Source: a virus
Length of the DNA: 64,000 nucleotides
IMG/VR virus record: IMGVR_UViG_3300021057_000274
Location: 62,001-126,000 of that record
Strand: one strand, 5' to 3'
Part shown: one piece after another, positions 14,209 through 42,276 of the stretch
Layout: each line of letters begins with the position of its first letter
Numbering within the stretch: position 1 is the first letter of the stretch
Program-made: the position numbers and the translations under genes
Notes under the pieces: model-generated
The model's database searches: none
What the model was told of the DNA's origin: nothing
Seen by the model: the letters and a program-made list of their open reading frames with translations, nothing else

Positions 14209-15635
14209 GGATCACCGAGGTTTACCGGCGCAAGACTACCCCCGAGGGGTGGATCGAGATCGGCGAGATCGGCCGGACGATCTTTGGTCAACAAAATCAG
14301 TACTTCGCTCGATACTTCGAGATGCCCGAGATCGTCAAGGACCTGCGGGTGAACGGCGACCCCGCCGACTATCACAGCTGGTCGATCCACCCCGACGACA
14401 AGGACAAGTTCGTTGAGCGCGTGAGAGAGCATTCAAAGAGCAAGGGACTAGCTGAAGCCGACACCCCACCTTCACCCAAGCCGGAAGATCCAGTCAAGCA
14501 GGAGATCAAAGCTGAGGTTACTAAGCGAACGGGGTCGGCGCGCACCAACTTTGCTCAAGAGTACCAGCGACGCTCCGCTCGCCAGGCAGAGATCAACGAG
14601 CTGAGCAAGCAAGGCACCTCCGAGCTCAACATCAAGGAGGCGATCATCAAGATCGCCGAGGACGATAACAAGGCCTACCCCCAGTTTCACGGCAAGTGGA
14701 AGGGCAAGGACTGGCGCGTGATGCGGTGCAACCACCGCGTCAAGACGAAGGGTTACCCAGCCGCCGAGAGGGGGGACCTCGTGCTAGCCAAGAAGGAGCC
14801 TGCGCAGGAGCACGAAAAGCACAAGGGCGACGAGCGTGTCACCTTCTACTCGATCCGGAACGCCGTTGACACGATCAGCATGAAGGCTAAGTCATTCGTG
14901 CCGCTCTCTACCGTGACAGAGAGTAAGACTGAGATCAAGAAGCTCTTTAAGAAGGGTGGCTTCTTAAAGTGGAACAACATCACGAACAAAGAAGCTCGCG
15001 AAGCAGGAATCGCACCTAACGACCTAGTACCTGCGACTTTGAATCAAACTTACGACAAGAAGATCTTGGGGCTTCGCATCGACGGACGGCCTTATCTTCT
15101 CAACGAGGGTCATCCCGGCTTCGACAGCTACTACACGGTGCGACGTGCAGGAGGCTATGAGGAGTACGAGGTCGCGAAGTTCTCGGACCGCAAGGAGCCT
15201 GAGTACGTCGAGTGGGTCAAGAAGAAGGACGACAAGAACTTTGAGTCATCCTCTCACAGCTTCCGCAAGATGGGGCAGCTTGACAAGTCGATCGTCATCG
15301 TCAAGCAGTTCATCGCGGACGGTGAGCCTGACCTCGTCTACTACACCGTCGAGGAGAAGCCAAAGCGTCACGCGGTGAAGCACAAGATGGGCGGCGAGGG
15401 CCCGCAGCCAGACATGTTCTCAGAGGGAAGGTTGGGAGATCTTCAGGCAGAGCTCACTAGACTGAAGGTACCTAGCTTTCACATGAACGCCGTCATGAAC
15501 GCGGCGACGCAAGCCTCCTCCTACACCGATTTCGTCAGCATGCTCAGAAAACGCGAGCTTCTCCTGAAGCACGGCAACGAGGGGATGGAGGAGATCTACC
15601 GCACCGTACGCTCGATGATGAAGAGGACCTCATGA
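14205..15635 (+). CDS. hypothetical late protein, 476 aa
   Basis: Not recognised. Starts MRITEVYRRK. Lys/Glu-rich linker around residues 75-130, then a mixed alpha/beta body and a helical C-terminus. Its size, late position and overlapping neighbours with targeting-like starts suggest a virion-internal protein (inference). Both ends are ATGA overlaps. Confidence 0.6.
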   Translation: MRITEVYRRKTTPEGWIEIGEIGRTIFGQQNQYFARYFEMPEIVKDLRVNGDPADYHSWSIHPDDKDKFVERVREHSKSKGLAEADTPPSPKPEDPVKQEIKAEVTKRTGSARTNFAQEYQRRSARQAEINELSKQGTSELNIKEAIIKIAEDDNKAYPQFHGKWKGKDWRVMRCNHRVKTKGYPAAERGDLVLAKKEPAQEHEKHKGDERVTFYSIRNAVDTISMKAKSFVPLSTVTESKTEIKKLFKKGGFLKWNNITNKEAREAGIAPNDLVPATLNQTYDKKILGLRIDGRPYLLNEGHPGFDSYYTVRRAGGYEEYEVAKFSDRKEPEYVEWVKKKDDKNFESSSHSFRKMGQLDKSIVIVKQFIADGEPDLVYYTVEEKPKRHAVKHKMGGEGPQPDMFSEGRLGDLQAELTRLKVPSFHMNAVMNAATQASSYTDFVSMLRKRELLLKHGNEGMEEIYRTVRSMMKRTS

Positions 15636-16138
15636 AGCTTAAGACTGTCTTGACCGAAGCCCCGAAGTGGACAAAGCACCCGACTCGCAAGGGGGTACTG
15701 ACTCGCACGATCTCACCTGAAGAGCGGAAGCGTGAGGAGGAAAAGGAATCTGCTCCCAAGAAGAGCGCGAGCAACGAGCAGAAGTGGCTCCAACCGATTC
15801 CTGAGCTGGACGTCTCGGAGATCAAGAAGGCGTGCAAGAACGGAGGTAATGACATCGGCGCCGAGATCGAGGAGGCCACGCGAGGGCAATCCTTCGTCAA
15901 GGAGGTCACGTACGATCCTGAGCACATCGGGGTCCCTGAAGCGAAGCGGAAGTATAAGTTCAAGAGTGACAGCGACATGCCGAAGCGCAAGGTCGCAGCC
16001 GTCAAGTATGACCTCTTCGTCTACTACGACGCGAAGGAAGCTGGGATCGAGACCGACGCCGATCACGTCGAAGAGATGGTGAAGATCATCATCTATCGTG
16101 ATCCGATTAACCCGAAGCGCTTGATCGGAACGTACTAA
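15632..16138 (+). CDS. candidate internal head protein, 168 aa
   Basis: Starts MKLKTVLTEAPKW. The first nine residues plus Glu-Ala match the T4 capsid-targeting and protease-cleavage pattern (hydrophobic-x-Glu before Ala). A Lys/Glu-rich segment follows, then an alpha/beta C-terminal domain. Not otherwise recognised. Confidence 0.6.
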   Translation: MKLKTVLTEAPKWTKHPTRKGVLTRTISPEERKREEEKESAPKKSASNEQKWLQPIPELDVSEIKKACKNGGNDIGAEIEEATRGQSFVKEVTYDPEHIGVPEAKRKYKFKSDSDMPKRKVAAVKYDLFVYYDAKEAGIETDADHVEEMVKIIIYRDPINPKRLIGTY

Positions 16139-16139
16139 G

Positions 16140-16697
16140 TTGAAGTTCAAAGCTTTTCTCGCTGAGTCGGTCACCTTCGGCGCGACGATCCATCGCGTAG
16201 AGAAGGACGGGCAGCGCTCGCATGACTTCACTCCGTTCGAGAAGGAGAAGGAGATCGACTGTCGTGAGTGCCACTACCACGGCAAGTCCGAGCACTGCTG
16301 GATGTGCAAGGGAACGGGAAAGGAGAAGGTTTGGGTGACCGACTACGACAAGATTCAGCTCTCAAACTCGGGCGCGCTCGCCTTCTTGAGCGCGATCGGT
16401 GAGAAGGTCAACGGCGACGAGAGCTTAGTCGGCGGGTGGGATAACTCGGAGCTCCCTGAGCTCCGACGGAGGCTCATTCGGATGAAGAACGGCGACCTAA
16501 AGCACCATGAGACGCCACCGAGCGATGAGCAGCGCGTCCGCGGGGTCAAGCATGACGGAAACGTAGCGACGATCGAGCGCGGCCCTCGCATGATCAGTTA
16601 CGGACGAACCGCCGCACAGTACGGCGAGCTGATCGACGACTTGCTCAAGCTCATCGACTTCGCTCAGAAGCACGACGCAGGAGTGAGCTGGGCATGA
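16140..16697 (+). CDS. candidate internal head protein with zinc finger, 185 aa
   Basis: TTG start: MKFKAFLAESVTFGA, again a targeting-like peptide ending Ala-Glu before Ser. Residues 40-60 hold CRECHYHGK and CWMCKGTG, a DnaJ-like four-Cys zinc finger. It ends in an ATGA overlap with the next gene. Confidence 0.62.
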   Translation: MKFKAFLAESVTFGATIHRVEKDGQRSHDFTPFEKEKEIDCRECHYHGKSEHCWMCKGTGKEKVWVTDYDKIQLSNSGALAFLSAIGEKVNGDESLVGGWDNSELPELRRRLIRMKNGDLKHHETPPSDEQRVRGVKHDGNVATIERGPRMISYGRTAAQYGELIDDLLKLIDFAQKHDAGVSWA

Positions 16698-17263
16698 AGA
16701 TCATCGAGCTCGTCGAGGGCGAGGTCATCAACATCGAGGACAAGCTTACCAAGAAGGTCAGGTCAGAATTTCGTGACAAGCTCAGCAAGATTGCCGACGA
16801 CTTGCCTCGCGCTTTCAAGCAGCAAAAGGACCAGGAGAACTGGCTCTCAGACGAGCTCAAGCGAATCAAGGAGATTCCGAACAAGGAGTTCGGAAAGGCC
16901 GAGCTCATGAAGGTGCGTCCGCTCTTCAAAGATCGCGTCGGTGGCTTCCAGATCACCGACGCGATCGTCAGCAACATGCATCGCCTCGAGTGGATCAGAG
17001 ACGGCGAGGAGTACGATAACTCGGCGACCGGCGAGACCAAGGAAGAGTTTGAGCTCGCCAAGAGGTACTTCAGTGAGAACCACGAGAAGCTCATTCAAGT
17101 TCTTCAGAAGCAGATCGACGAGCTGCGAAAGCTCGCCGAGGAAGCTCGCAAGCTGAAGTGGTACGCGCCGTGGGAGCGCTACTCGATGTACGGGTACGAC
17201 CTTCATCAGTACAAGCGTGACCTGGAGTCCCTCAAGCAGTTCAAGAAAGCGTTAAAGCTCTAA
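16694..17263 (+). CDS. hypothetical late protein, 189 aa, coiled coil
   Basis: Starts MKIIELVEGEVIN. Long charged helices with heptad-like spacing (KLIQVLQKQIDELRKLAEEA). Not recognised. Last gene of the late run; stop TAA before the next promoter. Confidence 0.6.
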   Translation: MKIIELVEGEVINIEDKLTKKVRSEFRDKLSKIADDLPRAFKQQKDQENWLSDELKRIKEIPNKEFGKAELMKVRPLFKDRVGGFQITDAIVSNMHRLEWIRDGEEYDNSATGETKEEFELAKRYFSENHEKLIQVLQKQIDELRKLAEEARKLKWYAPWERYSMYGYDLHQYKRDLESLKQFKKALKL

Positions 17264-17269
17264 ATTTCA

Positions 17270-17298
17270 TTTACTTTTGAGTGATTTTGAGTTAAAAT
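17270..17298 (+). promoter_or_regulatory. sigma70-like promoter
   Basis: TTTACT 17270-17275, 17 bp, TAAAAT 17293-17298. A GGAGG-type Shine-Dalgarno precedes the GTG at 17326. Confidence 0.75.
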
Positions 17299-17325
17299 GC
17301 CTCTATTGCTACTTCGGAGGCGAAC

Positions 17326-17805
17326 GTGGCGCAAGTCTTTGACCTGAATGAGCTTCTTCACGAGGACGCGCTGCCTTGTAGCTTCGCGTATCTCGACATC
17401 GACGAGCTTCAGATGACGGTCGGGGACTTCTTCTCACGCAACTACGCTCGCGACCTGGTCAACTTCACCCCGATCGACTACCCGGGCTCGCAGCACAAGC
17501 GCGTGCTTCAAGCGTTTCTCCTGCGTCAGCCGATTCCCCGTTTCATCCTCGCCAACAATGACTCTAGCGGCGCCCTGAAGATTCTCAAGGGCCACGCGAT
17601 CATCGAGGCGATGGAGTACGTCTATCGCAATTACAAGAGCACCGACAGAGCGCTCGCCCGCCGTGTCCTGACCTCGATGATCACCTTCACGATCGTTCGT
17701 CGACACAGCGAAGCTCACAAACCCTTCGGTCGATTCGGTATCGACAACGAGACGCTCTACCTGAACTTCCTCAAGTTTCTCGACGCGTGCAACGAGTCGC
17801 GCTGA
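17326..17805 (+). CDS. DUF262/ParB-N-like domain protein, 159 aa
   Basis: The segment FTPIDYPGSQHKRVLQAFLL with RQPIPRFILA resembles the DUF262 (GmrSD N-terminal) pattern in which a nuclease or NTP-sensing core begins. The canonical DGQQR motif is not evident (KGHAIIEAM stands in its place), so activity is doubtful. GTG start with GGAGG upstream. Confidence 0.45.
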   Translation: MAQVFDLNELLHEDALPCSFAYLDIDELQMTVGDFFSRNYARDLVNFTPIDYPGSQHKRVLQAFLLRQPIPRFILANNDSSGALKILKGHAIIEAMEYVYRNYKSTDRALARRVLTSMITFTIVRRHSEAHKPFGRFGIDNETLYLNFLKFLDACNESR

Positions 17806-19028: not shown

Positions 19029-19100
19029 ACGCCCGCCGATGGATTTTCGGCGCCAGGTCTTCTAAACCAGGATAGGAGGGTTCGATTCCTTCCGGGCGTG
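19029..19100 (+). tRNA. tRNA-Arg(TCT)
   Basis: Acceptor ACGCCCG/CGGGCGT, anticodon loop CTTCTAA, one mismatch in the anticodon stem, T-loop TTCGATT. CC but no A encoded. Confidence 0.75.
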
Positions 19101-19193: not shown

Positions 19194-19286
19194 TCCTCGG
19201 TACTCTAACGGTAAGAGACCTGGCTGTTAACCAGACGTATCCCGCCACCGAGCGGTATGGAGGTTCGAGTCCTCCCTGAGGAGCCA
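19194..19286 (+). tRNA. tRNA-Asn(GTT) with a long variable arm
   Basis: Acceptor TCCTCGG/CTGAGGA, loop CTGTTAA, T-loop TTCGAGT, CCA. The variable region holds an extra CCGC/GCGG hairpin of about 18 nt, which tRNA-Asn normally lacks. A canonical tRNA-Asn follows directly. Confidence 0.7.
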
Positions 19287-19782: not shown

Positions 19783-19998
19783 ATGAAGCTGTGGGTAGAT
19801 CACCCTGCCACAAATCGGGTGATGAGGTCCGATCGCCTTCGTCCGTGGCATGCATGGCGCCAGGGCGATACCCCAGCAGTAACTGCGGCCGTCACCGAAC
19901 TTTATGCGAGAAAGTTCAGCGGTGACGAGGAGGAGGCGAACTGCTCGTTCAGTTGTCCCATTCGTCTAGTGGCTAGGACACAACCCTTTCAAGGTTGA
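19783..19998 (+). CDS. doubtful small ORF, 71 aa
   Basis: From the ATG at 19783 (MKLWVDHPATNRVMRS). The first 60 residues look protein-like; the end runs into tRNA-Glu at 19955, which no bacterial gene needs. No Shine-Dalgarno seen. Confidence 0.25.
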   Translation: MKLWVDHPATNRVMRSDRLRPWHAWRQGDTPAVTAAVTELYARKFSGDEEEANCSFSCPIRLVARTQPFQG

Positions 19999-20029
19999 GA
20001 ACGGGGATCGAAACCCCGATGGGACACCA
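19955..20029 (+). tRNA. tRNA-Glu(TTC)
   Basis: Acceptor GTCCCAT/ATGGGAC, anticodon loop CTTTCAA (U33), D-arm TTCGTCTAGTGG typical of Glu, encoded CCA. Confidence 0.92.
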
Positions 20030-20033
20030 CTAT

Positions 20034-20109
20034 CTGGGTGTAGGTCAGCGGCGAGACTGCCTGGTCCGGAGCCAGGAGGCCGTGGGTTCGAGTCCCACCA
20101 CCCAGACCA
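20034..20109 (+). tRNA. tRNA-Pro(CGG), C33 type
   Basis: Acceptor CTGGGTG/CACCCAG, stem CCTGG/CCAGG with loop TCCGGAG, giving anticodon CGG after C33. A CCG (Arg) reading would need a shifted stem. Encoded CCA. Confidence 0.65.
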
Positions 20110-20149
20110 AAGCGGCCCCCAGCGCCGCTCTAAGCCGAGGCTGGGGCAT

Positions 20150-20225
20150 CGGAGAGTCGCCTAGCGGCTATGGCGCCTGCTTTGGGAGCAGGATACCGTG
20201 GGTTCGAGTCCCACCTTTCCGACCA
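20150..20225 (+). tRNA. tRNA-Pro(TGG)
   Basis: Acceptor CGGAGAG, anticodon arm CCTGC-TTTGGGA-GCAGG with normal U33, encoded CCA. Confidence 0.9.
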
Positions 20226-20235
20226 ACACATCAAT

Positions 20236-20310
20236 CGCTTCTTGGCGGCAAGCTGCCGTGCTCCCACTAGAAGGGAGAGCGAGGAGGTTCACGCCCTCCA
20301 GGAGCGACCA
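20236..20310 (+). tRNA. tRNA with anticodon TAG (Leu-type reading), C33
   Basis: Acceptor CGCTTCT/AGGAGCG, anticodon stem CTCCC/GGGAG, loop ACTAGAA. Position 34-36 reads TAG, which would decode CUA. It lacks the long variable arm of tRNA-Leu and U33 is C, so isotype is uncertain. Encoded CCA. Confidence 0.5.
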
Positions 20311-20311
20311 C

Positions 20312-20385
20312 GGGTCCGTAGTTCAATGGTAGAATGTTACCTCGACACGGTAGAGACGAAGGTTCGATTCCTTCTGGACCCACCA
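20312..20385 (+). tRNA. tRNA-Val(GAC), C33 type
   Basis: Acceptor GGGTCCG/TGGACCC, stem TTACC/GGTAG, loop TCGACAC, T-loop TTCGATT, encoded CCA. Confidence 0.75.
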
Positions 20386-20391
20386 AAATTT

Positions 20392-20465
20392 GGGCTACAA
20401 GCTTTAAGGTGAAGCATCTGGCTCTTACCCAGAAGAACGGGGATCATTACCCCGGTAGCCCACCA
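20392..20465 (+). tRNA. tRNA-Lys(CTT)
   Basis: Acceptor GGGCTAC/GTAGCCC, anticodon arm TCTGG-CTCTTAC-CCAGA, T-loop ATCATTA, encoded CCA. Confidence 0.85.
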
Positions 20466-20468
20466 GCA

Positions 20469-20617
20469 TTCGGTAGTGACCTAACGTTCAGGACGAAAGG
20501 AATCGTGCGGTCGCCCTAGTACCAGCTCTGGGTGACTAAACGGAGTCGAGTAGGCCTGCTCGCAAAAGGGATCGGTCAGGGACTGGTACTCCAGAGGTTC
20601 GACTCCTCCTACCGGAC
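20469..20617 (+). tRNA. giant tRNA-like gene, 149 nt
   Basis: Acceptor TTCGGTA/TACCGGA, D-stem GACC/GGTC, an 8-bp arm AGTACCAG/CTGGTACT in the anticodon position enclosing nearly 60 nt, and T-arm AGG-TTCGACT-CCT. Cloverleaf order kept, loops greatly expanded. Isotype unknown. Confidence 0.45.
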
Positions 20618-20625
20618 TAAACTAG

Positions 20626-20702
20626 GGTTCTTTAGCTCAGATGCGTAGAGCGCCGAGCTTACACCTCGGATGTCGGGGGTTCAAGTCCCTCAGGAACCAC
20701 CA
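20626..20702 (+). tRNA. tRNA-Val(TAC)
   Basis: Acceptor GGTTCTT/AGGAACC, anticodon arm CCGAG-CTTACAC-CTCGG, T-loop TTCAAGT, encoded CCA. Confidence 0.9.
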
Positions 20703-20704
20703 AT

Positions 20705-20780
20705 GGCGATGTGGTGAACTGGCTATCACGCGGCTCTCATAAGGCTGAGTAGACGGGATCGAAACCCTCCATCGCTACCA
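20705..20780 (+). tRNA. tRNA-Met or tRNA-Ile2 (CAT)
   Basis: Acceptor GGCGATG/CATCGCT, anticodon loop CTCATAA, encoded CCA. Elongator Met and lysidine-modified Ile cannot be told apart by eye. Confidence 0.8.
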
Positions 20781-20782
20781 TT

Positions 20783-20876
20783 CTAGGAAGTTGGGACTGC
20801 TCAAGCGGACGGAGTCCGGTAGCCCTCGCGGGGAGACCAATGAGTTGTGGTTCGATTCAACGCCTAGCTTTTATTG
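20783..20876 (+). other. tRNA-like remnant
   Basis: T-arm TGTGG-TTCGATT-CAACG and a partial acceptor CTAGG/CCTAG, plus GGACT/AGTCC, but no anticodon arm. Confidence 0.35.
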
Positions 20877-20881
20877 CGCTT

Positions 20882-20956
20882 CCCTCATTCGTCTAATGGT
20901 CAGGGCCCGTGCTTGATAGGCGCGTGACGGTGGTTCGATTCCATCATGAGGGACCA
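20882..20956 (+). tRNA. tRNA-Ile(GAT)
   Basis: Acceptor CCCTCAT/ATGAGGG, stem CGTGC/GCGCG, loop TTGATAG (U33), encoded CCA. Confidence 0.88.
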
Positions 20957-20957
20957 A

Positions 20958-21040
20958 CAGCAGCCGAGAAGCAGGCCCGTCGGTCGGTTAGAGAGCCTTC
21001 CGCACGTGCGCTCCGTGAAGCCACGGCAAACGGACTGCTG
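20958..21040 (+). other. structured inter-tRNA element
   Basis: CAGCAG/CTGCTG closes the element; CCGTG-AAGC-CACGG inside. No anticodon or T-loop. Confidence 0.4.
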
Positions 21041-21046
21041 CATTAT

Positions 21047-21121
21047 CAGGGTGTAGCTCAGTGGGAGAGTGCTACGTCGGGAACGTAGAGGCCGCAGGTT
21101 CAATCCCTGCCACCCTGACCA
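21047..21121 (+). tRNA. tRNA-Pro(GGG), C33 type
   Basis: Acceptor CAGGGTG/CACCCTG, anticodon arm CTACG-TCGGGAA-CGTAG, T-loop TTCAATC, encoded CCA. Confidence 0.85.
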
Positions 21122-21224
21122 ATAGCTGGCTTGCAAGTGACGAGAGGTCATCATGCTTCGGAGCGCACGCTGGGGATAAGCTCCCAGCGCAGCGACCTAG
21201 ACGGCAAGCTGGCGGGCCTTATTT
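21122..21224 (+). other. inter-tRNA spacer with hairpin
   Basis: No gene. Contains GCTGGG-GATAAG-CTCCCAGC and CTTGC/GCAAG pairings. Confidence 0.35.
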
Positions 21225-21295
21225 CAGAGCGTAGCGTAGTGGTAGCGTACCTGGCCTGGAACCAGGAGGTGTTGGTTCGATTCCAGCCGCTCTGA
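21225..21295 (+). tRNA. tRNA-Pro(TGG), C33 type
   Basis: Acceptor CAGAGCG/CGCTCTG, stem CCTGG/CCAGG, loop CCTGGAA. Reads TGG after C33; a GGA (Ser) reading would require a shifted loop, and A73 favours Pro. CCA not encoded. Confidence 0.6.
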
Positions 21296-21302
21296 CCGGG
21301 GG

Positions 21303-21390
21303 AAGATGTAGGTTCGAATCCTATCCAATGGCCATAAGCCCGTGAGGGTGGCTGGCAGGTAGCTCAACCGGCAGAGCAGCTCCCCTTTCT
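21303..21390 (+). other. tRNA fragments in inverted order
   Basis: A 3'-half-like piece (GTAGG-TTCGAAT-CCTAT, ending near 21335) comes before a 5'-half-like piece (TAGCTCAACCGGCAGAGCA, about 21358-21376). GGGG and CCCC could form an anticodon stem, but acceptor strands do not pair. Confidence 0.35.
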
Positions 21391-21467
21391 GGTACATTAG
21401 CTCATGGGGTTAGAGCGCGCGCCCGATAAGCGCGGGGTGGAAGGTTCGAGTCCTTCATGTACCACCA
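21391..21467 (+). tRNA. tRNA-Ile(GAT), C33 type
   Basis: Acceptor GGTACAT/ATGTACC, anticodon arm CGCGC-CCGATAA-GCGCG, T-loop TTCGAGT, encoded CCA. Second Ile(GAT) beside the U33 version at 20882. Confidence 0.85.
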
Positions 21468-21597
21468 GACAACACCGTTGCTTCTCACCGAGAGAAGCCA
21501 GCTAGCAAGCGAAGCAGACATTCGTCTAGATCACTGCGACTGGACCCGGAATCCCTCGCGTGGTGGCCGATTGTCGGCTAGGACGGATTCGTTGTCT
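21467..21597 (+). other. multi-hairpin RNA element between tRNAs
   Basis: AGACAAC/GTTGTCT (21467-21473 with 21591-21597) encloses perfect hairpins GCTTCTC-ACCGA-GAGAAGC, AGAC-ATTC-GTCT and GCCGA-TTG-TCGGC. Confidence 0.5.
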
Positions 21598-21600
21598 ACT

Positions 21601-21673
21601 GGGGGATGTAGCCGGGGCACAGGAACGCCTTGCAAGCGATCCGCGATGGGTTCAACTCCCATATCCTCCACCA
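21601..21673 (+). tRNA. tRNA-Ala(TGC)
   Basis: Acceptor GGGGGAT/ATCCTCC, loop CTTGCAA, T-loop TTCAACT, encoded CCA whose A may be shared with the next element. Confidence 0.8.
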
Positions 21674-21774
21674 GATCTTTAGCTCAAACGGGTAAGAGCG
21701 GCGGGACAGATAACCCGCGTCAAGGTGAGCTACGGCGAGCCGAGTGCGGCGACCCCATGCCGTAAGATCTACCA
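21673..21774 (+). other. tRNA-like with normal D-arm but no TTC loop
   Basis: AGATCTT/AAGATCT acceptor and ACCA end, D-arm AGCTCAAACGGGTAAGAGC, anticodon arm GCGGG/CCCGC with an 8-nt loop ACAGATAA. The T-arm is replaced by TACGGC/GCCGTA. Confidence 0.4.
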
Positions 21775-21778
21775 AACT

Positions 21779-21849
21779 GGGCTGTTAGTTTAGCGGGAAA
21801 ACACTGCGCTTGCACCGCGGAATCCGGGGTTCGACTCCCCGACGGTCCA
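21779..21849 (+). tRNA. tRNA-Ala(TGC), second copy
   Basis: Acceptor GGGCTGT/ACGGTCC, anticodon arm CTGCG-CTTGCAC-CGCGG, T-loop TTCGACT. CCA not encoded. Confidence 0.82.
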
Positions 21850-21869
21850 CCCACAGATAGGAGATGATC

Positions 21870-22052
21870 ATGTTACCGATCGACGAAGCTGTCAAGCTCA
21901 CCGACATGGATGAGCTGGGTCGTGAGGAGTGGGAGCGTCTCTTCATCTCGACGAACCCGATGTGGAACGTCAGCCCGACCGAGGTCATGAGCGAGGTCAG
22001 AAGGTTGGGTGAACGTCGTAAGGAGCTCCTCAAGGGAGTTCGCTGGTTCTAA
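21870..22052 (+). CDS. hypothetical protein, 60 aa
   Basis: AGGAG at 21859-21863 fits the ATG at 21870 better than the ATG at 21864. Acidic, helical (DEAVKLTDMDELGREEWERL). Sits inside the tRNA array, so it is co-transcribed with tRNAs. Not recognised. Confidence 0.6.
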   Translation: MLPIDEAVKLTDMDELGREEWERLFISTNPMWNVSPTEVMSEVRRLGERRKELLKGVRWF

Positions 22053-22057
22053 GCTGT

Positions 22058-22131
22058 TGGGGATTGGTGAAATGGTATCATGTGAGATTCTGACTCTCAA
22101 GTCGTAGGTTCGATTCCTACATCCCCTGCCA
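22058..22131 (+). tRNA. tRNA-Gln(CTG)
   Basis: GGGGAT/ATCCCC acceptor with weak first pair as in tRNA-Gln, anticodon arm TGAGA-TTCTGAC-TCTCA, G73, encoded CCA. Confidence 0.85.
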
Positions 22132-22180
22132 CACAACGTCCCTCCACGCCTCTCAACGATGCGCACCCAGGAGGGCCTCT

Positions 22181-22253
22181 GTGCCTCAGACCAATCTGGT
22201 GATGGACCGAGCCTGAAAGCCTCGGAAGCTCGGTTCGATTCCGAGGGGGCACA
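22181..22253 (+). tRNA. tRNA-like, probable Phe(GAA)
   Basis: Acceptor GTGCCTC/GGGGCAC, T-arm CTCGG-TTCGATT-CCGAG. Anticodon loop CTGAAAG gives GAA but with a C31-C39 mismatch; it can also be drawn as a 9-nt loop. CCA not encoded. Confidence 0.6.
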
Positions 22254-22255
22254 CC

Positions 22256-22348
22256 GGTAGGTGGCGCTGGCGCGCGGCTGGGCCTTATAGACCCGGGAGA
22301 CTGGCCGGACTGGCTGGAACGGCGAGGGTTCGAATCCCCGACCTACCA
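22256..22348 (+). tRNA. tRNA with long variable arm, anticodon probably TAT (Ile)
   Basis: Acceptor GGTAGGT/ACCTACC, T-arm with TTCGAAT. Loop CTTATAG gives TAT with one mismatched closing pair; the variable arm is long (about 20 nt). CCA not encoded. Isotype uncertain. Confidence 0.5.
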
Positions 22349-22453
22349 CCTGTAAGAATCTCCCGAGGTTTGACCCGAGGAGTCGTTAGAGAAGATGATA
22401 TCTCGCTGGCGACGGCCAGAGAACCCCGGGGATGACAGACTCCCGGGACGATT

Positions 22454-22529
22454 GGCCCTTAAGCTAATCAGGTGAAAGCGCCGGTCTGAAAAGCCGGAGA
22501 GTCTGGTTCGATACCAGAAGGGGCCACCA
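22454..22529 (+). tRNA. tRNA-Phe(GAA)
   Basis: Acceptor GGCCCTT/AGGGGCC, anticodon arm CCGGT-CTGAAAA-GCCGG, encoded CCA. Confidence 0.9.
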
Positions 22530-22547
22530 ATACAGGAGGATCGCCAA

Positions 22548-22634
22548 ATGTTCAAAGCTTGGTGGGACAATGGGGCAACGAGAGGCTTTGGGATGCGCTT
22601 ATTCCGGAGCTGGCTTTGTGGTGATTGCTGCTAG
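22548..22634 (+). CDS. small ORF, 28 aa
   Basis: AGGAGG about 7 nt before ATG; encodes MFKAWWDNGATRGFGMRLF and a Cys-rich end, stop TAG. The strong Shine-Dalgarno is the main support. Confidence 0.4.
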   Translation: MFKAWWDNGATRGFGMRLFRSWLCGDCC

Positions 22635-22731
22635 AGCGATTCCGGACAGACAGATGACATGGAGCTGGTACTTCTTTCTCGGATTTCGCGTACGTGGAAA
22701 GCACTTAATTGATTTTCGCTGGACGAAGTAG
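22621..22731 (+). CDS. small ORF, 36 aa
   Basis: GTG at 22621 overlaps the previous ORF; or ATG at 22654. Encodes an aromatic-basic peptide (MTWSWYFFLGFRVRGKH). May be a frameshifted continuation of the ORF at 22548. Stop TAG. Confidence 0.35.
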   Translation: MIAARAIPDRQMTWSWYFFLGFRVRGKHLIDFRWTK

Positions 22732-22737
22732 ATCTGT

Positions 22738-22810
22738 TGGGGTGAGGATTGGCATCTACGGATGGCTTTGAACCATCTCGGACACGGTTCGATTCCGTGC
22801 GCCCCTGCCA
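22738..22810 (+). tRNA. tRNA-Gln(TTG)
   Basis: GGGGTG/CGCCCC acceptor, anticodon arm GATGG-CTTTGAA-CCATC, T-loop TTCGATT, encoded CCA. Confidence 0.88.
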
Positions 22811-22966
22811 AGGTTGATGGAATGATCATCGACGCCTAGAAGAGCGTGCACGCTTCCTCCAGAGCGGCTAGACGTGAGGAGGATTTTGGATGAAGGGCTA
22901 TCCTCGTTCGATTCGAGGCGTCCTGAACGAAACGGCGCCGAGTCGGTGGAAGCCCGGCGCCTGCAT
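22811..22966 (+). other. inter-tRNA spacer with a lone T-arm
   Basis: CCTCG-TTCGATT-CGAGG is a perfect T-arm near 22905-22921, and GACGCCT/AGGCGTC can pair across the region, but no anticodon arm is visible. Confidence 0.35.
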
Positions 22967-23038
22967 GTCCCGTTGGATTTCCGGGTAGATCGCTGGGACT
23001 TCACCCCAGAGAGACGGGTTCAACTCCCGTACGGGACG
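22967..23038 (+). tRNA. tRNA-Glu(TTC), C33 type
   Basis: Acceptor GTCCCGT/ACGGGAC, anticodon arm CTGGG-ACTTCAC-CCCAG, T-loop TTCAACT, G73. Second Glu(TTC). CCA not encoded. Confidence 0.75.
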
Positions 23039-23045
23039 CCCCCAC

Positions 23046-23134
23046 GGGGCGCGACGCTGAAGACACCGCCGCGGGCTCAACGCTAGGCCACCGCGGTAAG
23101 ACTTCGGGGCGGACGGTTTCCGCGCGCTCCACCA
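23046..23134 (+). other. tRNA-like element with acceptor and CCA but no T-loop
   Basis: GGGGCGC/GCGCTCC acceptor followed by A and CCA. CCGCGG/CCGCGG arm inside; no TTCGA loop and no 7-nt anticodon loop. Confidence 0.35.
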
Positions 23135-23151
23135 AATGATACAATAGCTAG

Positions 23152-23907
23152 ATGCTCTACGTAGGAACCAGCGGCTTCCAGTACAAGCACTGGAACGACG
23201 GCGTGTTCTACCCGTCTGGCGTCAAGGATCGCTTGGCGTTTCTCAGCCAACGGATGAACGCTCTCGAGATCAACGCGTCGTTCTACAGCATTCCAAAACC
23301 GGGGAGCGTGCGGCGCTGGAGCGAGAAGCTTCCGCAGAACTTCAAGCTAACGCTCAAGGCTCCTCGGTCGGTCACGCACCGACGTCGCCTCAAGCTGCGG
23401 AGCGACCCGACGATCAAGCAAGGCTGGGACCTCCTCCGCTACTTCTCGGAGGGCGTTCTTCAGATCGCTCCGCAGCAGCGAGGACCTGTTCTCGTGCAGT
23501 TGGAGCACAGATTTAAGATCGATCTCGACCGCTTAGAGGCCGTGCTGGAGTTCTTCAGAGTTCTCCAGCTGACCGTTGCGCTCGAGGTAAGGTGTACCTC
23601 CTGGCTTCGGATGGAGACGCTCAGGCTGCTTCGAGAGTATCGAGGCGCGTTGGTCTCCGCGGATTGGAGGGAGTGCACGGTGCCGATCTACGACACGGGA
23701 AGCTTCGTGTACGTGCGCCGCCACGGGTCGCTCGGACGATACTTCGGGTCATACTCGAGGGCCAAGCTCCAGGCTGATCTCGACGCGGTAGCGCCGTACC
23801 TAGAGCAAGGGCGCGACGTCTACGTCTTCTTCAACAATGACGGCGGCGGCGCGGCCCCGAGGAACGCAGTAAGCATGCTTAAGTTAGCAGATGTCCGATT
23901 CGTCTAG
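23152..23907 (+). CDS. DUF72 family protein (YecE-like)
   Basis: 251 aa. Family pattern from the first residues: VGTSGFQYKHWNDGVFYPSG, then LEINASFYSIPKPGSVRRW and NFKLTLKAPRSVTH. C-terminal FVYVRRHGSLGRYFGSYS and VYVFFNNDGGGAAPRNA also fit. DUF72 proteins adopt a TIM-barrel-like fold; function unknown. ATG is 6 nt after TACAAT (23140-23145), so the mRNA should be leaderless. Sits in the middle of the tRNA array; the stop TAG overlaps the leader of tRNA-Glu at 23893. Confidence 0.82.
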   Translation: MLYVGTSGFQYKHWNDGVFYPSGVKDRLAFLSQRMNALEINASFYSIPKPGSVRRWSEKLPQNFKLTLKAPRSVTHRRRLKLRSDPTIKQGWDLLRYFSEGVLQIAPQQRGPVLVQLEHRFKIDLDRLEAVLEFFRVLQLTVALEVRCTSWLRMETLRLLREYRGALVSADWRECTVPIYDTGSFVYVRRHGSLGRYFGSYSRAKLQADLDAVAPYLEQGRDVYVFFNNDGGGAAPRNAVSMLKLADVRFV

Positions 23908-23967
23908 TGGTAAGGACGCTAGCCCCTCAAGCTGGAAACCCGGGTTCGATTCCCGGCTCGGACGCCA
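23893..23967 (+). tRNA. tRNA-Glu(CTC), C33 type
   Basis: Acceptor GTCCGAT/CTCGGAC with a mismatch at the last pair, anticodon arm CTAGC-CCCTCAA-GCTGG, T-loop TTCGATT, encoded CCA. Confidence 0.82.
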
Positions 23968-23968
23968 C

Positions 23969-24042
23969 GCGGATTTGGTCTAATGGTATGACGTGAGATC
24001 GCCAGTCTCAAAGCGCGGGTTCGATTCCCGCAATCCGCTCCA
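23969..24042 (+). tRNA. tRNA-Gly(GCC), C33 type
   Basis: Acceptor GCGGATT/AATCCGC, anticodon arm TGAGA-TCGCCAG-TCTCA, encoded CCA. Second Gly(GCC) beside the U33 copy at 9763. Confidence 0.85.
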
Positions 24043-24111
24043 ACGTTGGTCGCGCGCTTGACCGTTCCGCGAGATAAGAGAGGAGGTCTCTAAAATGAGA
24101 TCCGCCAACGT
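24043..24111 (+). other. tRNA-sized element closed by a 7-bp stem
   Basis: ACGTTGG/CCAACGT (24043-24049 with 24105-24111); inner CGCG/CGCG and GAGA/TCTC arms. No T-loop or CCA. Confidence 0.45.
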
Positions 24112-24118
24112 TTCAATG

Positions 24119-24192
24119 GTACCCATGGTGTAATGGAAGCACTTCTCCCTGTGAAGGAGGTAGCACCGGATCGATACCGGTTGGGTACCCCA
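24119..24192 (+). tRNA. tRNA-His(GTG), second copy
   Basis: Acceptor GTACCCA/TGGGTAC, loop CTGTGAA, C73, encoded CCA. Confidence 0.88.
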
Positions 24193-24195
24193 TAA

Positions 24196-24270
24196 CTCGC
24201 TGTGGTGAAACGGACATCACGATCCTCTCCTAAAGGGTAAGTCCAGGTTCAATTCCTGGCAGCGAGGCCA
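24196..24270 (+). tRNA. tRNA-Arg(CCT)
   Basis: Acceptor CTCGCTG/CAGCGAG, anticodon arm ATCCT-CTCCTAA-AGGGT, T-loop TTCAATT, encoded CCA. Confidence 0.88.
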
Positions 24271-24271
24271 T

Positions 24272-24346
24272 CTCCGGTCCAGTGGCATTCTGGCACAGCG
24301 GCTACGAACCGCAGTTGCGGGAGTTCGATTCTCTCACCGGGGTCCA
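24272..24346 (+). tRNA. tRNA-Arg(ACG), second copy
   Basis: Acceptor CTCCGGT/ACCGGGG, loop CTACGAA, T-loop TTCGATT, encoded CCA. Confidence 0.82.
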
Positions 24347-24353
24347 AACACAT

Positions 24354-24427
24354 GTCGGTGTGGTCCAATGGCAGGGCGATTGGCTGCAACCCAATAGACG
24401 GGGGTTCGATTCCCTTCACCGACTCCA
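24354..24427 (+). tRNA. tRNA-Cys(GCA)
   Basis: Acceptor GTCGGTG/CACCGAC, anticodon arm ATTGG-CTGCAAC-CCAAT, encoded CCA. Confidence 0.9.
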
Positions 24428-24509
24428 AAGAAAAAGCGGCGCCCGATGAGTTGGGCGCCGCTGGAGGACCGGCCCTTCGCAGGGAGGGGAGGAGGGGCCG
24501 GTTGGACGA
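24428..24509 (-). ncRNA. small leftward RNA with anti-Shine-Dalgarno-like loop
   Basis: The minus strand has a complete unit: promoter TTTACT (24543-24538), 17 bp, TACATT (24520-24515); predicted start near 24509; a CCGGCCC/GGGCCGG hairpin whose 19-nt loop reads CTCCTCCCCTCCC then TGCGAA; and a terminator hairpin GCGGCGCCC/GGGCGCCGC followed by TTTTTCTTT at 24435-24428. CCTCCT equals the 16S anti-Shine-Dalgarno core. No ORF fits. It may sequester or mimic ribosome-binding sequences (inference). Confidence 0.6.
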
Positions 24510-24630
24510 ATTTCAATGTATCACTCTCTCCCGAGAAAGTAAACAGATTCTTGCAAGAAGAAAGCACTTCGACCTCAGCCTGGCCGGGCGGTCGAAAAGT
24601 TGGGGTAAGAGCCCTCATGGCTAGGCGCAG

Positions 24631-24704
24631 GCCCGGTTCGTACAGTGGTAGTACGCCTGTTTCGTAAACAGGATGCGGGGGTCCGATTCCCTCACTGGGC
24701 ACCA
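24631..24704 (+). tRNA. tRNA-Thr(CGT)
   Basis: Acceptor GCCCGGT/ACTGGGC, anticodon arm CCTGT-TTCGTAA-ACAGG, encoded CCA. Confidence 0.9.
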
Positions 24705-24705
24705 T

Positions 24706-24780
24706 CTCGCTGTAGTGAAGTGGACATCACGGTCTCCTCCGAAGGGACAAGCCCAGGTTCGATTCCTGGCAGCGGGGCCA
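24706..24780 (+). tRNA. tRNA-Arg(CCG)
   Basis: Acceptor CTCGCTG/CAGCGGG, anticodon arm GTCTC-CTCCGAA-GGGAC, encoded CCA. Close relative of Arg(CCT) at 24196. Confidence 0.88.
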
Positions 24781-24787
24781 AGCTACA

Positions 24788-24793
24788 TAAATA
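24788..24793 (+). promoter_or_regulatory. late promoter motif TAAATA
   Basis: CATAAATAGCCTC directly before the ATG at 24799; flanked by GCTA/TAGC. Same arrangement as at 9038. Confidence 0.6.
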
Positions 24794-24798
24794 GCCTC

Positions 24799-25125
24799 AT
24801 GAAGCTCTCAGACCTCTTCGAGACCAAGTCCAACTTTTACGTGAAGCTGTGGGGGAAGGTGAACGACGTCCAGATCGACGGCGTCTCCGACCTCGAGGAC
24901 CTCCACGAGAAGATCGGCACAGGCGCTTCGAATCCGATCAAGAAGAAGATTGAGGCGGCGTTCGCCGAGCTGGTCAACGCTAAAGGCGACCACTACGCCG
25001 CCGAGATTCAAGAGGTGATCTGGGAGCACAATGACGAGTTCTTCGGCGTTGACCTCTACGTCAGCACTCCAGACCTTGACGGTGAAGCTCCCCGCACGGT
25101 GCGCGGCGAAGTTCACCAGTCGTGA
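24799..25125 (+). CDS. candidate internal head protein, 108 aa
   Basis: Starts MKLSDLFETKSNF, the targeting-like peptide (Glu before Thr). Acidic, helical body (AEIQEVIWEHNDEFFGVDLY). Late promoter 5 nt upstream. GTGA overlap with the next gene. Confidence 0.6.
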   Translation: MKLSDLFETKSNFYVKLWGKVNDVQIDGVSDLEDLHEKIGTGASNPIKKKIEAAFAELVNAKGDHYAAEIQEVIWEHNDEFFGVDLYVSTPDLDGEAPRTVRGEVHQS

Positions 25126-25454
25126 GACTCAACGAGATCTTCTCCTACGAGGACGACGAGGAGCGTCGCATTCAAGCTCGTCGCAAGCGCGACACGTACG
25201 GTGCTCCACTACATCCCAGCAAGGCCAACACCTTCGTCGCCAAGTTGCTCGACAAGCATGACGGCAACCCGAAGGCGGCACTCGCTGAGCTCGTCGACGA
25301 GATCGACGACTACCAGCGGAGCCGCGGCAAGAACGGCCCGATGATGACGCTCTACACCGCGATGCACCAGATGCTCTTGGACTACGTCAAGAACCCAAGC
25401 GCCTTTCAGCGGTTCATGCAAAAGGTTGTCAAGACTCCGCCCGATAAACTTTGA
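25122..25454 (+). CDS. candidate late protein, 110 aa
   Basis: GTG start in overlap; MRLNEIFSYEDDEERR start. Helical and charged. Its last 16 nt are also the 5' end of tRNA-Thr(TGT) at 25439, so coding and tRNA sequence overlap. Not recognised. Confidence 0.58.
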   Translation: MRLNEIFSYEDDEERRIQARRKRDTYGAPLHPSKANTFVAKLLDKHDGNPKAALAELVDEIDDYQRSRGKNGPMMTLYTAMHQMLLDYVKNPSAFQRFMQKVVKTPPDKL

Positions 25455-25513
25455 CGGTGAAGCCTTCTCTTGTAAAGAAGCGGAAGTCGGTTCGAATCCG
25501 GCATCGGGCACCA
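25439..25513 (+). tRNA. tRNA-Thr(TGT)
   Basis: Acceptor GCCCGAT/ATCGGGC, anticodon arm CTTCT-CTTGTAA-AGAAG, T-loop TTCGAAT, encoded CCA. The acceptor 5' strand lies inside the preceding reading frame. Confidence 0.88.
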
Positions 25514-25524
25514 AACTCAACAAC

Positions 25525-25598
25525 GCTCTTGTAGTCCATTGGTAAGATGCATCCTTGGTAAGGATGAGAACAGGGTTCGATTCCCTGCTGGAGCACCA
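25525..25598 (+). tRNA. tRNA-Thr(GGT)
   Basis: Acceptor GCTCTTG/CTGGAGC, anticodon arm CATCC-TTGGTAA-GGATG, encoded CCA. Confidence 0.9.
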
Positions 25599-25614
25599 CG
25601 TAGAAAGTCATCAA

Positions 25615-25854
25615 ATGAATCTCAAGGACATGGTCTCAGGCAACAAGCTCGTGCGGTTCTCCTTTTACCGTGAGGGCCAGCTCTGGTACAAGACGGAGTG
25701 CGGCTTCGAGTTTCCCGTGCCCACCGATCCCAACGAGATCGGCACCGCCGTCTTCCTCGCGGAGGACAAGGCGCTGCTCTTCATGCGGTACATCAGGAAG
25801 CACCTCGACTATCTCAACAAGGCCAAGCAAGAACAAGCTGGAGATGCCGGTTAA
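25615..25854 (+). CDS. hypothetical protein, 79 aa
   Basis: ATG at 25615 with AGAAAG upstream. Starts MNLKDMVSGNKL. Mixed beta then helix; C-terminal charged helix (YLNKAKQEQAG). Not recognised. Confidence 0.55.
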   Translation: MNLKDMVSGNKLVRFSFYREGQLWYKTECGFEFPVPTDPNEIGTAVFLAEDKALLFMRYIRKHLDYLNKAKQEQAGDAG

Positions 25855-26041
25855 GACCCGGCCGGGCGCGCGTGAGTTACCGCGGCACGTAGTTTAAACC
25901 TAGAACGCCAGCTACTCACTTAGGAGTCAAACATGACGCACCTCCGAAAACATCCCGCTACACCTCGACGGGAGAGTGGTGTTAACGGTTGAGCACAGCG
26001 GACTTATTCATGAGCTTGATGCGCTATGTAAAATAGACGTC

Positions 26042-26637
26042 ATGCTCATGTGTCAGCACTGCAATAGATCCACATCGCAACGTCAAGCGCTCATCATGCA
26101 TGAGCGGTCGTGTAAGCAGAATCCTAATAGAGTGCCCGGGAAGAATTCCTGGTCCAATCCAACCTACAAAATGTCGGAAGAGACTAGGCAGAAGCTTCGT
26201 GAGAGCACGATCCGAAGAAATCGAAGCATGTCTCTAGAGTGCGCAGGAAGATCTCTGAGGGGCGGATCAGGTATCTGCGTGACCATCCTGAGATGGTGCC
26301 ATACAAACTCAATCATAAATCTAAGGGTAGATCTTTCCCGGAGAGATACTGGGGAGAGCTCCTGAAGAAATACGGTCTAGAGTTCGTCGAGCAGTTTCAG
26401 GAATCTACCTACACGCTTGACTTCGCATTCCTTGATCGCAAGATCGACCTCGAGATTGACGGAGAACAACACTACGTCGATCCTAGGATTGTTTCCTCTG
26501 ATCAGCGCCGAAATGCTTTTCTTGAGGGACGAGGATGGAAGATTGTTCGAGTGCGCTGGTCTAAGTACCAGCAGCTTTCTGGAGATGATCGCGAAAAGTT
26601 CGTCACGAATCTCGTTGAAAGCCTGACGACAGGTTAA
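26042..26637 (+). pseudogene. homing-type endonuclease, frameshifted
   Basis: ATG at 26042 is 7 nt after TAAAAT (26029-26034), leaderless type. Frame 1 encodes CQHC and a later His/Cys pair (zinc finger), then NPTYKMSEETRQKLRES, a NUMOD3-like DNA-binding segment. Near 26236 the frame is lost. Continuation in the frame opening with GTG at 26239 gives RRKISEGRIRYL, PERYWGELLKKYG, then YTLDFAFLDRKIDLEIDGEQ and GWKIVRVRW. That is the Vsr/DUF559-type PD-(D/E)xK core of free-standing homing nucleases. One missing base explains the split. It lies between tRNA genes and next to a tRNA 3' half. Whether a short product is active is unknown. Confidence 0.75.
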
Positions 26638-26639
26638 TC

Positions 26640-26675
26640 CGACAGGTCTCGGTTCGAATCCGAGTTCTCCTACCA
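26640..26675 (+). other. 3' half of a tRNA
   Basis: T-arm CTCGG-TTCGAAT-CCGAG, 3' acceptor strand TTCTCCT and A plus CCA. No matching 5' half adjoins it; the endonuclease gene ends immediately upstream. Possibly a tRNA cut by the insertion. Confidence 0.55.
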
Positions 26676-26687
26676 CGTAATTGTGTG

Positions 26688-26716
26688 TGTTCTTTTGAGT
26701 GATTTTGAGATATAAT
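26688..26716 (+). promoter_or_regulatory. sigma70-like promoter, weak -35
   Basis: TATAAT 26711-26716; TGTTCT at 26688-26693 in the -35 position. Leader carries GGAGG before GTG at 26750. Confidence 0.6.
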
Positions 26717-26749
26717 GTCTCATATTCAACGGTCCTGGAGGCGGGAAAC

Positions 26750-27148
26750 GTGGAAAAGATCACCAAGTTCGACAAACACAATCTTCAACTCCTTCGCCAA
26801 GAGATGAACGCCGCGCTAGCCACAGTCGGGGCGAAGTACGGCATCAAGGCAAACATCGGTAACATCAAGTACAGCGAGTCGGCATTCTCTTGCCCGCTAG
26901 CGGTGATCGTTGAATCCGCGGTCGCAGATCCCCGGCTCGAGAGCGTGGCGCCAGAATCGATCATCCACCTCAAAAAGAAGTGCGGTGACAAGGCCCTCCT
27001 CAAGCAGATCACCTACAACGGCCGCAAGATGGTGGTCGTCGGACTACGCGGCAGCAATTTTCTGGTGCGTGTTGACGGTGTCGACGGCGTCCGGAAGTTC
27101 AAGGGCCGTTGCTTCAGCGAAATATACGACGCGATCCTGAACCAATAG
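26750..27148 (+). CDS. hypothetical protein, 132 aa
   Basis: GTG preceded by GGAGG. Helical first third, then a beta-rich end that could be a small SH3-like barrel (GRKMVVVGLRGSNFLVRVDG). Not recognised. Stop TAG. Confidence 0.6.
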   Translation: MEKITKFDKHNLQLLRQEMNAALATVGAKYGIKANIGNIKYSESAFSCPLAVIVESAVADPRLESVAPESIIHLKKKCGDKALLKQITYNGRKMVVVGLRGSNFLVRVDGVDGVRKFKGRCFSEIYDAILNQ

Positions 27149-27154
27149 AATCGC

Positions 27155-27350
27155 ATAAATCGAATGATGCCTCCCGGGTAACCGGGAGCGCAAGCGGAGC
27201 TAGATGACCTGATCTAGCTTCGGCCGTCTCTGGAATTAGCGTCGAGCGTCACGTTGACGCGCGCAAGCTAAGGAGTTACTCCTGAAGCCTCGCGTGATGC
27301 CGCACGCCGGACCCAGTTGGGGCGTATCAGGTAGCTTGCATTTTTCTAGG
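27155..27350 (+). ncRNA. structured leader or ncRNA, about 190 nt
   Basis: No ORF. Perfect hairpins in series: CTCCCGG-GTAA-CCGGGAG, AGCTAGAT-GACCTG-ATCTAGCT, TTAGC...GCTAA enclosing GCGTC/GACGC, GGAG-TTA-CTCC and GCGTG/CACGC. Either a 5' leader of the phosphatase gene or a separate RNA ending at the T-run near 27346. Confidence 0.5.
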
Positions 27351-27359
27351 GAGCAGATC

Positions 27360-28025
27360 GTGCTGTACACGTTTGTCGGAGATGTCCACGGAAAGTGGGA
27401 GGCCGTCGAAGCGGCCCTGGCCAACGACGGCCAGGTGATCTTCGTGGGTGACATCGTCGACTCGTACGGAGATCGAGGAGTAGAAGATTATCGCCGCTGT
27501 TACGATCTCATCCTCGCCGCGATCGAGAAGGGTAAGGCTCGCGCGATCTTCGGTAACCACGAGCTCTCGTACTACATGCCGTATACACATGCGGCGTCAG
27601 GGAAGACAGACGCGTCGATCGACATGATGAAGGAGTACGAGGCCAAGCTCATGCAGAAGTTCGAGCCGTTTATTCTGCTTAACTCGCGATTTCTGGTGTC
27701 ACACGCCGGGCTCAGCAATGAGATCTGGGAAGCTGGATATCTCGATCAAGCCGATGACTTGCAAGCTCGCCTCACGATGTGGTGGCATGATCTTAAGTCA
27801 CCTATGCACTGGATCGGTGTCGTGCGTGGCGGAAAACAATTCGTCGGCGGGATGTTCTGGTGCGACTTTCGCCGGGAATTTCAACCAGTATCTGGGTTGA
27901 CTCAAGTGTTCGGTCACACCCGCGGGCGTGACATCCGCTTCGCGGAAGATCCAGTCAAGGGTGGGTCTTATTGCATCGACTGTCTAGACTTCACGGAGAA
28001 CAAGTTCCTCCAGCTAGACGTCTAA
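27360..28025 (+). CDS. metallophosphoesterase (lambda PP-like)
   Basis: 221 aa from GTG at 27360. Calcineurin-like motifs in order: GDVHGKWEAV, FVGDIVDSYGDRG, FGNHELSYY, VSHAG and a C-terminal GHT (VFGHTRGRD). All metal ligands of the bimetal centre are present. The family dephosphorylates proteins or nucleotides; lambda phosphatase is a phage example. The GTG start is chosen because the GDVHG motif follows within 10 residues and GGGAG is upstream. Confidence 0.85.
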   Translation: MLYTFVGDVHGKWEAVEAALANDGQVIFVGDIVDSYGDRGVEDYRRCYDLILAAIEKGKARAIFGNHELSYYMPYTHAASGKTDASIDMMKEYEAKLMQKFEPFILLNSRFLVSHAGLSNEIWEAGYLDQADDLQARLTMWWHDLKSPMHWIGVVRGGKQFVGGMFWCDFRREFQPVSGLTQVFGHTRGRDIRFAEDPVKGGSYCIDCLDFTENKFLQLDV

Positions 28026-28034
28026 GAAGTAACC

Positions 28035-28108
28035 GCCTCTGTACGTCAATGGCAGACCACCGCTCCCACACAGCGGGAACTCTGGTTCGATTCCAGACAG
28101 AGGCACCA
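28035..28108 (+). tRNA. tRNA-Val(CAC), C33 type
   Basis: Acceptor GCCTCTG/CAGAGGC, anticodon arm CCGCT-CCCACAC-AGCGG, T-loop TTCGATT, encoded CCA. Last tRNA of the main array. Confidence 0.85.
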
Positions 28109-42226: not shown

Positions 42227-42231
42227 GCGTG

Positions 42232-42258: not shown

Positions 42259-42276
42259 CAATCTGCACCTCAACTA

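Follow-up and report, generated by a model that had tools for sequence, protein, structure and literature searches.

Nine tRNA genes of a T4-like jumbo phage carry C instead of U at position 33, immediately before the anticodon, and we lean toward reading them as ordinary working elongator tRNAs of the phage in which U33 has changed to C by repeated, independent single transitions. U33 is a near-invariant of elongator tRNAs. The grounds for this reading are that the genes have normal structure, that the change recurs in unrelated phages, that it is restricted to certain isotypes and that it is conserved. All nine lie within bases 62001-126000 (the window, a stretch of 64,000 bases) of the 389,331-base IMG/VR virus record IMGVR_UViG_3300021057_000274. 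The record is that of a T4-like jumbo phage, as judged from its T4-type portal, tail sheath and terminase; a portal search placed it only distantly, with the protein of Xanthomonas phage XacN1 as the nearest named one (40% identity). ARAGORN finds 48 tRNAs in the whole record, 41 of them inside the window and the other seven at about 373-375 kb.

We took base 33 from the ARAGORN anticodon position and verified it by anticodon-stem pairing. The C33 genes, all on the plus strand and numbered here by position in the window, are tRNA-Pro(CGG) at 20034-20109 (loop TCCGGAG, with the C1 and A73 of proline identity in its acceptor), tRNA-Val(GAC) at 20312-20385 (loop TCGACAC), tRNA-Pro(GGG) at 21047-21121 (loop TCGGGAA; Sinorhizobium phage Phosso has a C33 tRNA-Pro(GGG) with 87% identity to it), tRNA-Pro(UGG) at 21225-21297 (loop CCTGGAA), tRNA-Ile(GAU) at 21391-21467 (loop CCGATAA), tRNA-Glu(UUC) at 22966-23041 (loop ACTTCAC), tRNA-Glu(CUC) at 23893-23967 (loop CCCTCAA), tRNA-Gly(GCC) at 23969-24042 (loop TCGCCAG) and tRNA-Val(CAC) at 28035-28108 (loop CCCACAC). 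Each has a fully paired anticodon stem (5/5) and a 7-nucleotide loop, and their scores against Rfam RF00005 are 46-65 bits, above the cut-off of 29. They thus have the score, the 5-base-pair stem and the 7-nucleotide loop of elongator tRNAs and lack U33; since that base, though nearly invariant, does not define the family, they are C33 variants of tRNAs. Because the stems are fully paired and the loops have seven nucleotides, no realignment gives U33, and a loop shift that would restore it is ruled out for all nine, so that the structural check proposed with the original prediction comes out in its favor.

That prediction had counted ten such tRNAs, and the tenth, its "TAG tRNA", stands only as a tRNA-like gene with anticodon UAG and C33 (20236-20310, plus strand, loop ACTAGAA) found by a structural scan; neither ARAGORN nor Rfam calls it. 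Its scan score is 43, and the highest background score over 230 kb of this genome is 34. The acceptor (CGCTTCT/AGGAGCG), anticodon (CTCCC/GGGAG) and T stems are perfect, and A73 and CCA are present. Its D arm is odd, and with its D loop and variable loop both short, the amino acid it would carry is uncertain.

The departure from the cellular rule is real, as had been claimed, and it extends well beyond this phage. Using T-arm patterns independent of base 33, we drew two samples of IMG/VR tRNA loci (the first pattern puts ACCA two bases off its canonical position, giving an odd but base-33-neutral subset), which together yielded 1,347 different phage tRNAs from records whose hosts are not known and some of which are fragments. 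C33 occurs in 76 of them (5.6%) and A33 or G33 in 7. With the first pattern, none of 122 tRNAs from a prokaryote genome collection had C33, as compared with 9/48 in the window phage (p = 6e-6; here and in the other tests each tRNA counts as independent, even where tRNAs are related). In 60 Pseudomonadota genomes, 1,123 U33-type and 58 C33-type matches were obtained with a stricter pattern, and no C33 was confirmed among them: the 40 C33-type matches that were refolded gave 38 tRNAs, all with U33, and four stretches without a tRNA, and for the remaining 18 the verdict rests on sequence similarity. We therefore reject these 58 as real C33 tRNAs; they are class II variable arms or register slips. 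In phages, the same pattern class found C33 in 31 of 355 tRNAs, and phage C33 differs from base 33 of every Pseudomonadota tRNA refolded. Both bacterial comparisons speak against C33 as a host-derived trait. The window phage ranks high among phages (9/48 vs. 76/1,347, p = 0.0018); adjustment for its G+C content (58%) and its isotypes raises the expectation to 5.8 C33 tRNAs, with a probability of 0.11 for nine or more. Among clean-register phage tRNAs, U33 is replaced by C in 66 of 1,112 (5.9%), U8 in 18 (1.6%), U55 in 17 (1.5%) and U54 in 1 (0.1%). Phage tRNAs are generally laxer, but base 33 changes almost only to C, and does so more often than U8, U54 or U55. The switch to C33 arose many times in phage tRNAs and not in the bacterial tRNAs checked, and looks like a real phage peculiarity. 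In the open-access literature, with subscription papers outside the search, we found no report on base 33 in phage tRNAs.

For 69 of 98 C33 tRNAs the nearest tRNA with the same anticodon in another phage has U33, so C33 must have had multiple origins. The Caulobacter phiCbK group shows the change at close range. All eleven phages examined, from two genera, carry a C33/U33 pair of tRNA-Ile(GAU). The C33 member is identical in the five phages of the two genera compared at full length (0 differences for Ccr10-Rogue and for Ccr10-BL10), whereas the U33 partner shows 7-8 base differences from one genus to the other. tRNA-Val(GAC) has U33 in phiCbK, Karma, Swift, Magneto, Ccr5 and Ccr34 and C33 in Ccr10, Ccr2 and Ccr29, and the genes of Karma and Ccr10 differ at base 33 alone. 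Among the Caulobacter phages examined, tRNA-Val(CAC) has C33 only in Rogue and BL10. From the one-base differences in Val(GAC) and the invariant C33 of Ile(GAU), we conclude that C33 is gained or lost as a point change and strictly kept in one gene.

These observations also bear on whether the C33 genes are pseudogenes in decay or decoys that do not decode, which we consider very unlikely. In its favor, other conserved sites, too, depart from consensus more often in phage than in cellular tRNAs. However, pairing in C33 tRNAs matches that in U33 phage tRNAs in every stem measured (acceptor, 6.90 vs. 6.85 base pairs; T stem, 4.82 vs. 4.76), and the T-loop invariants are about equal, so that decay is rejected on stem integrity. 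The absence of any difference in the Ile(GAU) C33 tRNA between two genera, and the five C33 genes of the window phage that are its only tRNAs of their anticodon, argue in the same direction. The decoy role that the original prediction had offered is unlikely given the intact stems and T loops and the perfect conservation of one Caulobacter phage C33 tRNA. Deamination of C33 to U33 in the RNA would also reconcile such genes with the rule, and C8 is deaminated to U in some archaeal tRNAs. Nothing direct favors it beyond the conservation of C33 in a single gene family; editing would not be expected to show so strong an isotype restriction, C33 is spread over many unrelated phages, and we regard this explanation as highly improbable.

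The isotype restriction is best seen in a pooled set of the IMG/VR samples plus named jumbo phages (1,679 tRNAs, 99 with C33). C33 rates differ widely (chi-squared p = 3e-18) and reach 28% in Val, 14% each in Pro, Glu and Ile, and 12.5% in Ala, a group of five that we call permissive and that was picked after seeing the data; C33 is absent from all 289 Met, Asp, Tyr and Trp tRNAs and from all 39 Arg(ACG) tRNAs. It is also rarer with the Q-type anticodons (G34U35), in 6/228, than with other G34 anticodons, in 36/322 (p = 1e-4). Since the identity elements listed for bacterial tRNA-Met include U33 (PMC9976931) and queuosine insertion at position 34 requires U33G34U35 (PMC8136771), the scarcity of C33 in Met and Q-type tRNAs is as expected. 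We did not use t6A as a cause of the isotype bias, as U33C left t6A unaffected in human mitochondria. Within the permissive isotypes, C33 makes up 24.6% in phages above 50% G+C and 7.7% in those below. As ordinary elongators, the C33 tRNAs would be charged and would decode, perhaps more slowly, and C33 may be tolerated where codon pairing is strong and U33 is needed neither for charging by the synthetase nor by the enzymes modifying positions 34 and 37. Phages would be under weaker constraint than cells, given redundant host tRNAs and a short period of use; GC-rich phages would supply more U-to-C changes; and selection might then keep C33 in some lineages.

Several observations weigh against this preferred reading. 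Even with G+C content and isotype class matched, C33 clusters within particular phages (p = 0.0115), a pattern not expected from drift alone. The 5.9% rate of U33-to-C change, well above the transitions at U8, U54 and U55, could mean selection on the anticodon loop, although U8, U54 and U55 cannot serve as neutral controls. Ser and Leu tRNAs seldom have C33 even though their synthetases do not read the anticodon; the preferred reading accounts for this only if the limiting factor is modification or codon strength. Finally, a yeast tRNA-Gln with U33C behaved as impaired (PMC3664417). That impairment would suit a different explanation, in which phage translation is tuned by C33 tRNAs whose decoding is slow or altered by design, much as rare A33 and G33 tRNAs limit mistranslation; natural G33 and A33 tRNAs do exist (PMC11415595), and several C33 tRNAs read frequent codons, including, among the sole copies, those for GAG (5.3%) and GUC (3.7%). 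Yet the three Pro C33 genes combine Pro anticodons with C1-G72 and A73, so that acceptor identity and anticodon agree and leave no dual identity, and nothing shows codon-specific placement in genes. We think this explanation unlikely.

The original prediction had described the C33 genes as a shadow set of the phage's U33 tRNAs. Four anticodons are indeed present as one U33 and one C33 copy each, the U33 partners being tRNA-Gly(GCC) at 9763-9836, tRNA-Glu(UUC) at 19955-20029, tRNA-Pro(UGG) at 20150-20225 and tRNA-Ile(GAU) at 20882-20956 (all plus strand, called by ARAGORN). The other five of the nine C33 genes, among them Pro(CGG), Val(GAC), Glu(CUC) and Val(CAC), are the phage's sole tRNA of their anticodon, and across phages a same-anticodon partner accompanies 14 of 40 C33 tRNAs and 99 of 352 U33 tRNAs (p = 0.36; a second duplicate-based test gave p = 0.29). 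With five sole copies and no excess of partners, the idea of a shadow set is unsupported. Recent duplication of the paired genes is likewise rejected: the nearest same-genome tRNAs of the C33 copies are at most 76% identical to them.

A more serious competitor, which we hold to be possible but not probable, is that C33 makes phage tRNAs poor substrates for host anticodon nucleases that recognize U33 or cleave next to it, letting phage translation continue while host tRNAs are destroyed. PrrC cuts 3′ of U33, and RloC, Cas13a-like and VapC-like enzymes act in the anticodon loop. C33 is specific to phages (31/355, against none confirmed beside the 1,123 bacterial U33 matches) and clusters in particular phages, both in keeping with evasion. 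However, the isotypes named most often as targets (Lys, Arg, Tyr, His, Asn, Asp, Trp, Ser, Leu, Gln, fMet and Cys, a list drawn from general knowledge and a few papers) have the fewest C33 tRNAs, 25/1,027 (2.4%) compared with 74/652 (11.3%) for the rest. That list is incomplete, as Glu is a further target of RloC and Cas13a, and Ala of RloC (PMC2610378, PMC11042736); RloC in fact prefers Glu (PMC2610378), and both isotypes are rich in C33. Mutations in phage tRNA loops have been proposed to confer resistance (PMC10264068). The phage encodes a T4-type RNA ligase 1 with both the ligase and T4_Rnl1_C domains (record positions 42001-43194, outside the window) and a homolog of the CCA-adding tRNA nucleotidyltransferase (56929-58035 in the window, plus strand; phrog_2244, 1.7e-94), a combination consistent with tRNA damage. 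T4 repairs PrrC damage with this kind of ligase (PMC2610378), so its presence suggests anticodon-nuclease pressure; the proteins scanned included no identifiable polynucleotide kinase partner. Against evasion, no nuclease is known to spare C33, and the correlation with G+C content is left unexplained. In a broader form, C33 might be an adaptive, convergent phage trait, the tRNAs translating on because unnamed host anticodon nucleases, or a host modification on which these depend, require U33. We entertain this only tentatively; if it is true, the Caulobacter sister phages that differ only at base 33 of Val(GAC) are natural resistant and sensitive alleles.

The phage has further unusual tRNAs. 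An amber (CUA) tRNA at 61181-61255 (plus strand), labeled "Pyl" by ARAGORN, has U33 and falls outside the C33 set; it coexists with TAG as an ordinary stop, which ends 62 of the 357 longest open reading frames. A 93-nucleotide tRNA-Asn(GUU) at 19194-19286 (plus strand) has a long, class II-like variable region; long tRNAs occur elsewhere, as an 83-nucleotide tRNA-Asn in Xanthomonas phage X1 and a tRNA-Lys of ~86-97 nucleotides in the phiCbK group. ARAGORN overlooks odd tRNAs, and the structural scan found four more tRNA-like genes that it missed, at 19029-19100 and 24272-24346 (plus strand) and at record positions 373259-373341 and 375256-375338: an Arg(UCU)-like gene, an Arg(ACG) gene with an odd D arm, and two genes with Leu anticodons, 25-nucleotide D regions and short variable loops. 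The one at record 373259-373341, outside the window, is Leu(GAG)-like and by the same scan another possible C33 gene. A DUF72 protein gene lies mid-array (23152-23907, plus strand, 2.5e-51); a search for IMG/VR relatives of the array with this protein and a 476-amino-acid protein found none.

Also inside the array is an abiF RNA (22140-22176, plus strand; Rfam RF03085, 48 bits, all 37 positions), and the 389,331-base record has no Abi_2/AbiF protein. At least 120 IMG/VR stretches hold the 15-mer core of this RNA. Its 6-base-pair stem takes many different forms and is fully paired in 52 of the 92 distinct contexts. Two or more tRNAs lie within 1.5 kb of the core in 35 of the 120 stretches, and all 184 of these tRNAs are on the same strand as the RNA. 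None of 30 IMG/VR records with the core that were searched contains Abi_2. Orphan abiF antitoxin RNAs may be widespread as phage decoys against AbiF, and may merit more attention than C33; an abiF RNA in a lytic cyanophage has already been reported (PMC9964418). Outside the window, genes for a PrkA kinase and a DUF444 (YeaH-like) protein, a bacterial stress/sporulation pair found here in a phage, lie close together (record 353245-355170 and 356983-358365). A PARP-domain protein and neighboring NUDIX/cytidylyltransferase-like and nicotinamide phosphoribosyltransferase genes (record 46541-47890 and 14972-17697) suggest NAD salvage.

About 6% of phage tRNAs break the U33 rule, in certain isoacceptors only, and none of the bacterial tRNAs checked does. 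This makes two questions testable: what living cells need U33 for, and whether phages alter anticodon loops to escape tRNA-cutting defenses. The Caulobacter phages offer natural variants that differ by a single base and infect a laboratory host. For annotators there is a caution, in that some C33 tRNAs have been filed as pseudogenes, the Val(GAC) tRNA of Ccr29 being an example.

The eukaryotic initiator tRNA has C33, which ribosomes tolerate there; that tRNA differs from those described here in being eukaryotic and an initiator rather than an elongator. Natural elongator tRNAs without U33 are known in bacterial tRNA-ProX (A33) and a mistranslating tRNA-Ser (G33) (PMC11415595), but in the phage the base is C, and in the three Pro genes checked the anticodon matches the identity elements, with no dual identity. 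Closest in theme is the work of van den Berg et al. (2023; PMC10264068), who described anticodon-loop changes relative to cellular tRNAs in the tRNAs of tRNA-rich phages. The main text of that paper does not mention U33 or position 33, whereas here a single defined base was surveyed against cells, and C33 falls mostly on isotypes not listed as nuclease targets. Among jumbo and other large phages, the array regions of Atu_ph07 and PA5oct contain no C33 tRNAs. Xanthomonas phages XacN1 and X1, the Caulobacter phiCbK group and Sinorhizobium phage Phosso resemble the window phage in having large same-strand tRNA arrays with some C33 members (Ile(GAU), Val(GAC), Pro(GGG) and Leu(GAG)), but each has one to three C33 tRNAs, as compared with nine here.

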